Source: Sphingomonas jeddahensis (lineage in GTDB: Bacteria; Pseudomonadota; Alphaproteobacteria; Sphingomonadales; Sphingomonadaceae). From it: a DNA stretch of 64,000 bases. This document shows, in pieces, positions 40,212-43,562 of this stretch. The stretch spans positions 62,001 through 126,000 of the forward strand of contig NZ_MPSB01000001.1 in the NCBI RefSeq assembly GCF_001981525.1, read 5' to 3'. How positions within the stretch are numbered: position 1 is the stretch's first letter; every line of letters begins with the position of its first letter. Below the pieces are notes generated by a model. The model was not told the DNA's origin. It searched no databases and was given only the letters and a program-made list of their open reading frames with translations. The translations under genes and the position numbers were made by a program.

Positions 40212-40895
40212 ATGACCAAGCCCGTTGTAACCGACATCGAACGCCCGATCCTGACGCCCCCCGATGGCCACAAGAAGGTGCTGCTGCACAGTTGCTGCGC
40301 GCCGTGTTCGGGAGAAGTGATGGAAGCGATGACGGCGAGCGGAATTGATTACACGATCTTCTTCTACAACCCGAACATCCACCCCAAGGAGGAATACATC
40401 CTTCGCAAGGAGGAGAATATCCGCTTTGCCGAAGCGCACAACGTGCCGTTCGTCGATGCCGATTACGACACGGTGAACTGGTTCAAGCGCGCCAAGGGAA
40501 TGGAGCACGAGCCCGAGCGCGGCATCCGCTGCACCATGTGCTTCGACATGCGGTTTGAGCGGACGGCGCTTTATGCGCATGAGAACGGCTTTCCGGTGAT
40601 CACCTCGTCACTCGGGATCTCGCGCTGGAAGGACATGAACCAGATCAACGGCAGCGGTGAGCGGGCAGCGTCGCATTACCCCGATCTCAGCTATTGGACG
40701 TTCAACTGGCGCAAGGGCGGCGGCGCGGCGCGGATGATCGACATTTCCAAGCGTGAGCAATTTTATCAGCAGGAATATTGCGGCTGCGTCTATTCGCTGC
40801 GCGACACCAATGCACATCGGGTGTCGCAGGGGCGGCCGGAGATCGAGATTGGCAAGCTGTTCTACGGGGTGGACGAGCCTTCAGCGTCAAACTGA
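40212..40895 (+). CDS. queH: epoxyqueuosine reductase QueH
   Basis: QueH reduces epoxyqueuosine to queuosine in tRNA and is the B12-independent replacement of QueG. The 227-residue protein has the DUF208 Cys pattern: HSCCAPCSG near the N-terminus, RCTMCFDMR in the middle and YCGCVYS near the C-terminus, which bind an Fe-S cluster and a second metal. ATG 40212 ([10 protein letters not shown]) or 40200 are the plausible starts; the longer frame from 40146 is Cys-rich without homology. A cobalamin riboswitch begins about 30 bases after the stop. Confidence 0.9.
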
Positions 40896-40925
40896 CATAA
40901 AGCCATAAAGATACCGTTATACCGC

Positions 40926-41100
40926 GGTTCGAGGCTCCCGGTGCGGGGCTAAGACGGGAGGCGGGTGGCGTGTCCGTGAGGGCCCGCAGTCCGGCGCCGC
41001 CTCTGCAACTGTAAGGGGAGCGGCGGCTTCATCTCGTGCCGCAAGCATGCCTGGCAGGCCCGGACCGTTTTGTTGATCCGTGACCAGGAGACCTGCCTTC
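40926..41100 (+). ncRNA. cobalamin riboswitch (orphan)
   Basis: The stretch has the conserved parts of an AdoCbl-type aptamer in order: the 5' GGTTCGAGGCTCCCGG start, the GGGGCTAAGACGGGAGGCGGGTG core, the CTGCAACTGTAAGGGGAGC block (ACTGTAA at 41008-41014) and the B12 box GACCAGGAGACCTGCC at 41082-41097. All are on the plus strand. No plus-strand gene follows: treY begins to converge from 41250, and the 150 bases in between hold no supported ORF. The element is therefore an orphan or the remains of a lost B12-regulated gene. Confidence 0.88.
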
Positions 41101-41249
41101 GCCGCAACCGCGCTCCTTGTAAGGGGGTTCCTCCGGTGGATCGCGCCGGGCGCTGCGCGCCGCGACCTGGGAGCGACAGAAGGCATTGGGCATCGCAGTG
41201 ATCCCCTCGAACGACCTTCCCCTCTCTCCTCCTGGGGAAGAGGAAGCGA
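41101..41249. other. gene-free spacer after the riboswitch
   Basis: The whole queH-treY gap (40896-41249) contains no coding region that I can support. After the B12 box there are GC-rich segments and a small hairpin (CTCCTTGTAAGGGGGTTCCTCC region) but no T-run. Plus-strand frames here run antisense into treY and look like shadows. Confidence 0.5.
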
Positions 41250-43562
41250 TCACCCCGGCGTGACGTCGAACCACACTGGTGACGCGCCAAGCACCTCCAC
41301 CGCATCGTGCCGCGCGCCCGAAGCAAAGTGGATCGTGGCCCTGTCGAACTCGCCACCTAGTGCTACGGCAACCCGCAGCGCCTTTCTCTCATACCTCCTT
41401 TCGAAGGCGAGCAGCCGTGCGCTTTCTGGAGTGTGGATCTCGGCCGGTTCGTAGCTTCCGTGCTCAAACAGTGCGCGATGTTGGCGACGCAGGCCGAGTA
41501 GGTCGATGAGCAGCCGCATCTTGGGCGCTGGGACATCGAGAGCGGCCGCGCGGGCGGCATAATCAACCGGGCGGCGGTTGTCAGGGTCGACAAGGCTGAG
41601 ATCCGCAAATTCCCGGCCCTGGTACAGGTCCGGCACCCCGGGCAGCGTGCAGCGAAGCGCAACCTGGATCAGGCTGTTGCGGTTCGCCGCGGAGGCGATC
41701 TCCGCCAGGAAGCCGTCGATAGCGCTTCGATAGGCGGGGTTGGCGATCAAGGCACGTGCGAGATCGTTGCAGCGGGCCTCGTACGCTTCGTCCGGCGCTT
41801 CCCATGACGAGCGCAGCTTGGCTTCCCGGAGTGCCTTAGTTTGCCAATCGGCGATGCGGTCGCTGAACTCTTCGGTGAGCCGATCCGGCCAGGCACCGAG
41901 GAGAGCCTGAAACAGCATGTAACGGTCGCCGCCATCGACATCCAATGAATGACTTGCCGCGATCTCTTCCCACCGGCTGACCACTTCGCGCCAACGGTCG
42001 GGTATGGCGCTGAGCACCGCCAGCCTGGCGCGGGAGTCCTCGCCGCGTTTGTGATCGTGGGTGGCGGTGGTAAGCATCGCGTGTGGCCAGTGCGTGGCGC
42101 GAGCTTGCATGCGTGCGTGGAAGGCCGCGGGGGCCAGCGCGAAAAGGCCGGCGTCAAAGCCGACGTCGTTACGGGAAAGCAAGCGACCGTGGCGGTAGAA
42201 AGCGGTGTCTTCCAATGCCTTGGCAGCGATCGGTGCCGAAAGCTGTTGAAAACGACGCGCTGCCTCGGCGCGTAGGCCGATGTCGCCGGAACCGGCACCG
42301 GCAAGCCAATCGAGCACCAGGTGAACGACCTCCTTCTCTCCGGGAGGTACGTGCGGCTCAACTCGTCGTCGTACCGTGTCCCGCACCGCTGCATCGCTGA
42401 CGGGAGCGTCGGGGCCGTAGGTGCGATAGACCGGGAAAACCCACAGCAGTCGCTCCAAAGCTCGGCGGAGCATGGCGCGGGTGATGCCGTCGGAAGCGAT
42501 CGCATGGAAGGCGTCAGTGCAGGCTTCAAGCTGACCGGTGAATTGCCATGCGAGGAGTTGCTGGCGGGCGAGCAGTTCTTCCGCTTCGAGGCCGACGGGG
42601 CGGTCACTGATCGCGTGCCATAGCTGGCCGAGCGGTTCGGCACCAGTCGGATCGTGGATTAGAGCGGAAACATCCTCCATGAAATCATAGCCGCTCGTGC
42701 CATTTACTGCCCATTCCTTCGACAGCTGCTCACCGGGGCCGAGAATCTTTTCGATGACGATCCATGCTTTGTCGCCGAGCCGGTCGCGGAGCTGGCGGCA
42801 ATAGCCGAGCGGGTCAGTGAGGCCGTCGACATGATCGATCCGGACCCCGTCGATCAGCCCCTCGTCGTGGAGGCGGAAGTAGAGGCTGTGGGTGCGTTCG
42901 AAGACCTGCGGGTCCTCGATGCGGACGCCGGCGAGCTCGTTGATTGCGAAGAAGCGGCGCCAGTTGAGCTCGTCGTTAGCGGTGCGCCAGAGCGCGAGGC
43001 GGTAATGCTGGCGGCTGAGCAGGGCTTTGATTGGCTCCTTCTCCGGTGCTTGCTGGTCTTGGTCGCGGAGAGGGAAGCGCTTGTTACCATAAGCAGTTAG
43101 CCACCAACGTTCGTCCTGATGCTCAACCTTCAGAACGCCGTCTTCGATCGCTTGGGCGAGAGAGGTGCCGAGAACCGGCAGGACGATCGGCCTTGACCAG
43201 TCGATGTCGAAGACGTCGGCGTATCGGCTAGCCCGGCCGTGGCGCAGGATGTCGTTCCACCAGGGGTTCGTGTCGCCGGCGACGCCCATGTGGTTAGGAA
43301 CGATGTCGATGATCATGCCCATGTCGCGCGCGCGCAAGGCATTGACGAGGCTGCGGAATCCTTCCTCGCCACCCAGCTCGGGATTGATGCGCGTGGGGTC
43401 GACCACGTCATAGCCATGGGTGGAGCCGGGCGCGGCGGTGGTGATGGGGGAGGCGTAGATGTGGCTGATGCCGAGTTGGTCTAGGTAGGGCACAATCGCC
43501 TCCGCATCGGCGAAGGTGAATTCCTTATGGAATTGAAGGCGATAGGTGGCGCGCGGGATCAT
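41250..43562 (-). CDS. treY: malto-oligosyltrehalose synthase
   Basis: TreY turns the reducing-end linkage of maltodextrins into a trehalose unit. The 770-residue GH13 protein begins MIPRATYRLQFHKEFTF and has the barrel motifs IDIVPNHMGV, the nucleophile segment GVRIDHVDGLTDP, the acid/base segment WIVIEKILGPGE, and TATHDHKRGEDSRAR. It starts within the malQ stop (four-base overlap) and is the last gene of glgX-treZ-malQ-treY. Its 3' end faces an orphan riboswitch. Confidence 0.95.
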   Translation of the reverse strand: MIPRATYRLQFHKEFTFADAEAIVPYLDQLGISHIYASPITTAAPGSTHGYDVVDPTRINPELGGEEGFRSLVNALRARDMGMIIDIVPNHMGVAGDTNPWWNDILRHGRASRYADVFDIDWSRPIVLPVLGTSLAQAIEDGVLKVEHQDERWWLTAYGNKRFPLRDQDQQAPEKEPIKALLSRQHYRLALWRTANDELNWRRFFAINELAGVRIEDPQVFERTHSLYFRLHDEGLIDGVRIDHVDGLTDPLGYCRQLRDRLGDKAWIVIEKILGPGEQLSKEWAVNGTSGYDFMEDVSALIHDPTGAEPLGQLWHAISDRPVGLEAEELLARQQLLAWQFTGQLEACTDAFHAIASDGITRAMLRRALERLLWVFPVYRTYGPDAPVSDAAVRDTVRRRVEPHVPPGEKEVVHLVLDWLAGAGSGDIGLRAEAARRFQQLSAPIAAKALEDTAFYRHGRLLSRNDVGFDAGLFALAPAAFHARMQARATHWPHAMLTTATHDHKRGEDSRARLAVLSAIPDRWREVVSRWEEIAASHSLDVDGGDRYMLFQALLGAWPDRLTEEFSDRIADWQTKALREAKLRSSWEAPDEAYEARCNDLARALIANPAYRSAIDGFLAEIASAANRNSLIQVALRCTLPGVPDLYQGREFADLSLVDPDNRRPVDYAARAAALDVPAPKMRLLIDLLGLRRQHRALFEHGSYEPAEIHTPESARLLAFERRYERKALRVAVALGGEFDRATIHFASGARHDAVEVLGASPVWFDVTPG

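Follow-up and report, generated by a model that had tools for sequence, protein, structure and literature searches.

Probable remains of a metE transcription unit with its cobalamin riboswitch between queH and treY in Sphingomonas jeddahensis

A cobalamin riboswitch normally precedes a gene on its own strand, and the question raised by the locus described here is why such an element should lie between queH and a convergent treY-like gene with nothing intact to control. The window, a 64,000-nucleotide contig stretch of Sphingomonas jeddahensis, belongs to a genome of 3.11 Mb in 28 contigs that was rated 100% complete. A sequence-only reading had described the element as a functional-looking sensor, with all conserved aptamer parts present, that was either left behind by the recent loss of a B12-dependent gene or controls a small RNA or a transcript antisense to treY. 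Our analyses indicate that the element is very probably a decaying remnant of a metE transcription unit that B12 repressed (Table 1), considering the homology, synteny, deletion footprint and decay observed at the locus and the lack of the gene in the rest of the genome.

Table 1. Coordinates of the features at the queH-treY locus, as positions in the window.
Feature	Position	Strand	Evidence
queH, epoxyqueuosine reductase	40212..40895	+	PF02677, E 4e-64
Relic of cobalamin riboswitch aptamer	40917..41111	+	RF00174 36.5 bits; 32/160 near-invariant columns changed; B12 box one base short after 41083
Remnant of 3' leader, probable expression platform	41112..41146	+	Homology limit at 41146; conserved in metE- and mesX-type leaders
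Deletion joint, leader / metE codon 41	41144..41150	+	Side-by-side sequences; relatives have GCCAG on both sides (short direct repeat)
metE relic, codons 41-66 (RALRAATWERQKALGIAVIPSNDLPL)	41147..41224	+	tblastn, DNA identity, Pfam, null test; without in-frame upstream start codon
treY-like glycosidase, convergent neighbour, intact	41250..43562	-	PF00128

Screening of the whole window against Rfam returned a single match, to RF00174 at 40917-41111 on the + strand (36.5 bits, E 1.2e-5), which exceeds the gathering score of 31.5 bits and bears out the earlier identification of a cobalamin riboswitch facing right. A DNA search of a genus sample of 295 genomes, one per species, placed the element in a riboswitch subfamily that occurs in many Sphingomonas genomes, with 73-76% identity across some 200 nt (E down to 5e-34). 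The genome of the window carries a second, strong cobalamin riboswitch (96 bits); it is located on contig C10, at the 5' end of an open frame for a btuB-like TonB receptor, a label that comes from reading the sequence and not from a family search.

The state of the aptamer was assessed by aligning the window with 38 non-redundant homologues and considering the 160 columns with at least 95% conservation among these, each homologue being scored against the others. The window deviates at 32 of these 160 near-invariant columns, while the homologues deviate at 1.5 on average and at 9 at most, and ten homologues scored 103-119 bits against RF00174 as compared to 36.5 bits for the window. The near-invariant core, including the B12 box AGCCAGGAGACC, is thus not preserved: the box reads GAGCCAGGAGACC in relatives and GA-CCAGGAGACC in the window, one base having been deleted, while GCCCCCG is changed to GCCTCTG, GGGAAGG to TGGCAGG, and the CACTG motif is absent. 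Deviation at conserved columns was used as the measure of decay because counts of broken consensus pairs (about 6 in the window and about 2-6 in the homologues) did not separate the relic from intact members; RNA folding of the region gave a z of +1.4. Neither the completeness of the aptamer nor its functional appearance, as claimed from the first inspection, is upheld by these data. The alignment indicates that the element is a decayed descendant of an RF00174 riboswitch, not an intact member of the family, and its pattern of change may be read as decay without strong selection. Weak residual selection is possible, given the score above the gathering value and the exact match of positions 41123-41145 to the leader consensus in the alignment with homologues, and some residual ligand binding by the aptamer is likewise possible, although we infer that no functional RNA is left.

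The DNA homology to relatives runs beyond the aptamer and stops at query position 257, which corresponds to 41146, so that the 3' leader is also covered. Directly past the aptamer, GGGGGTTCCTCCGGTGGATCGCGC is almost invariant across metE- and mesX-type leaders. Judging from its sequence, the leader stretch may be an expression platform in which CCTCC could pair with a Shine-Dalgarno sequence.

Immediately after this conserved leader, and fused directly to it, lies a scrap of metE of 26 codons. Comparison of the window with the intact MetE of the Sphingomonas MAG RGIG596 (L007) by tblastn gave one strong match, in which 41147-41224 encodes MetE residues 41-66 with 81% identity (E 2e-8). This match reached 44.7 bits, as compared to 23.9 bits for the best among 2000 segments of equal size generated under a Markov null. 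At the DNA level, the scrap matches metE of four genomes (G210, G261, G272, and G048) at 82-84%, with 84% over 62 nt in G210, and its sole Pfam match, weak but in register (39-61), is to the MetE N-terminal domain PF08267 (E 0.03). The footprint of the deletion is visible when the sequences are set side by side, as the leader of RGIG596 reads ...GATCGCGCCAG..., its metE reads ...GCCAGGGCGCTG..., and the window reads ...GATCGCGCCGGGCGCTG... across the joint. From the upstream stop codon at 41120 up to the scrap, the reading frame contains no ATG, GTG or TTG; the scrap therefore is not translatable as MetE from a start of its own, and only 25 bases separate its end from the treY stop codon. Being in register with MetE, and on the strand and in the place of the intact metE of RGIG596 and Sphingopyxis panaciterrae (L021), the scrap has the properties of a pseudogene. 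The possibility that 41140-41250 belongs to a dispersed repeat was ruled out, as no other good copy was found in the genome.

These observations modify two of the original claims. The riboswitch indeed has no intact + strand gene downstream, the first gene annotated to its right being treY, on the other strand, but a recognizable metE fragment does follow it. Likewise, a gene was lost as proposed, although it was not a B12-dependent one, since metE encodes the B12-independent methionine synthase.

The genes found behind related riboswitches point in the same direction. In the classified loci, with the window's own element excluded, every sufficiently complete riboswitch homologue had metE or mesX downstream on the same strand, mostly within about 120 nt and up to about 270 nt from the leader end. 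MesX was found behind the riboswitch in nine relatives among the nearest DNA matches and was confirmed with Pfam at two riboswitch loci (PF08908, E about 1e-160). Since the nearest DNA matches carry MesX, mesX was considered as the lost gene and was ruled out by the metE scrap and by the queH-riboswitch-metE order in RGIG596 and S. panaciterrae. Together, MesX and MesD make up a methionine synthase that requires neither B12 nor folate, as genetic work in Sphingomonas koreensis showed (PMC7857596); a text search of that article found no mention of riboswitches. The mesX-mesD riboswitch of Sphingomonas has a leader homologous to that of the window, and B12-switched, B12-independent methionine synthesis is presumed in both, but the downstream gene family differs, the scrap in the window being metE and not mesX.

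The comparison of sister loci suggested for this element was carried out and did reveal metE at the corresponding place. In S. panaciterrae the order is acnA, queH, riboswitch, and intact metE, with acnA on the far side of queH, and RGIG596 likewise has queH, riboswitch, and intact metE, while the window shows acnA, queH, riboswitch, metE scrap, and treY. The element thus shares with these two metE riboswitches of Sphingomonadales its strand, its position after queH, and a homologous aptamer and 3' leader, and differs from them in its degenerate aptamer and in the loss of all but 26 codons of metE. In Sphingomonas sp. Ag1 (L005), queH is followed by a frame of 423 amino acids corresponding to the N-terminal half of MetE and then by treY, without a riboswitch. 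This frame (L005:6884-8155) matches PF08267 (E 2e-75), is 49% identical to the MetE of RGIG596, lacks the catalytic domain, and is either a half-gene being lost or a re-used domain. In S. mucosissima (L003), S. dokdonensis (L048), and Sphingomonas sp. IC-11 (L004), queH directly adjoins treY, with neither riboswitch nor metE. This series represents states across living species and not a demonstrated order within one lineage.

Some related loci present further arrangements. In two of them (L222 in G148 and L223 in G215), riboswitch-mesX-mesD and not riboswitch-metE comes after queH, so that this slot is occupied by one or the other of the B12-independent methionine synthases. In a third (L224, G272:C3:24000-40000, with the same sequence as the RGIG596 genome), queH-riboswitch-metE and riboswitch-mesXD occur on one strand at a distance of about 10 kb, and recombination between the two homologous switches could exchange metE for mesXD. 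Besides, a different contig of the RGIG596 genome (L142, G179:C6) encodes a further full-length MetE with 64% identity, of a type common in other Sphingomonas.

The queH gene itself is part of this inherited arrangement. Its product shares 90-94% identity with QueH proteins from, among others, S. dokdonensis and S. mucosissima. As no QueG was found in the genome, it presumably is the sole epoxyqueuosine reductase there. The earlier remark on the proximity of the element to a B12-independent substitute for QueG was apt, except that queH lies upstream of the riboswitch and is not the gene into which it leads; from the comparison of loci, the adjacency is inherited synteny. Contigs labelled Bacillus subtilis (SK7B5 and SK6B4; L026 and L053) encode QueH 77-78% identical to that of the window, and these assemblies look mislabelled or contaminated.

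The ancestral locus would have had acnA on the - strand followed by queH, riboswitch, and metE on the + strand. Riboswitches of metE generally repress it in the presence of B12, when MetH is active. With B12 plentiful, the riboswitch would accordingly have kept metE off, methionine being made by MetH, a regulatory direction that we infer, as we do the order of the deletions. One deletion would have joined the riboswitch leader to codon 41 of metE, removing the ribosome site and the start codon, and another would have taken everything from about codon 66 to the 3' end of treY. If B12 was regularly available, metE would have been dispensable and lost, and the riboswitch would then have been free to drift.

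Among the other explanations, the one that fares best, though highly improbable, is that a still working riboswitch drives a transcript antisense to treY and so links B12 to trehalose synthesis. The + strand element converges on the 3' end of treY, its score exceeds the RF00174 cut-off, and antisense-acting cobalamin riboswitches have been described (PMC9943018). The antisense riboswitch of Listeria pocR likewise points toward the 3' end of an opposite-strand gene (PMC9943018), but the aptamer in the window is decayed and its position is explained by a deleted sense gene; antisense-placed riboswitches beside pseudogenes are also reported (PMC9943018). Moreover, the decay extends to the B12 box and other near-invariant positions, and the riboswitch is missing altogether from three near relatives that have the same treY. 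A scan found no sigma-70-like promoter or terminator, and the metE scrap offers a simpler reason for the position of the element. The treY product aligns to its end with 72-75% identity over residues 1-768 in S. mucosissima, IC-11, and S. dokdonensis. Antisense control of treY is unlikely, and there is an equally slim chance that the degenerate riboswitch was re-used, after metE was lost, in an antisense or small RNA that responds to B12 and acts on treY. The proposal that the element controls such an RNA found no backing, also because the examined loci contained no homologue lacking both metE and mesX.

Even less probable is that the riboswitch controls an unrecognized small gene or sRNA, for example the open frame of 124 amino acids at 41080-41454, which is the sole sizeable + strand ORF there. 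The frame exists, but it has no Pfam match, differs from the frame of the metE scrap, and runs antisense into treY, where DNA rich in G+C commonly contains long frames by chance, as it does many times here; besides, the homologous leaders all carry metE or mesX. Least credible of all is a chance or low-quality covariance match: the score does lie only 5 bits above the gathering score, but the 200-nt DNA homology is to Sphingomonas riboswitches that, where scored, reach 103-119 bits, and the placement relative to queH is that of RGIG596 and S. panaciterrae.

The reading of the element as remains of a metE unit is accompanied by a consistent picture of methionine and B12 physiology. MetH was found in the genome, while the catalytic domain PF01717 (Meth_synt_2) of any MetE or Mes family was absent from the whole genome, as would be the case if metE were a pseudogene, and a family search of the genome returned no Meth_synt_1, the MetE N-terminal domain. 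Neither CobN nor CobH/CbiC was found in the genome. Based on this gene content, the strain is a predicted B12 auxotroph, which would depend on B12 from outside, or on methionine. S. mucosissima, S. dokdonensis, and Ag1 retain riboswitch-mesXD elsewhere in their genomes and would thereby escape the need for B12.

Overall, the locus represents a traceable but ordinary gene loss and not a working orphan sensor, and the window and its relatives display, at one locus, states by which B12 dependence can arise, which comprise an intact queH-riboswitch-metE, a riboswitch with a metE scrap, the MetE half of Ag1, and a clean queH-treY junction. A riboswitch call above threshold without a gene can be a relic, and this status is settled by comparing the conserved positions with those of homologues and by looking for leftover pieces of the gene that is normally controlled.
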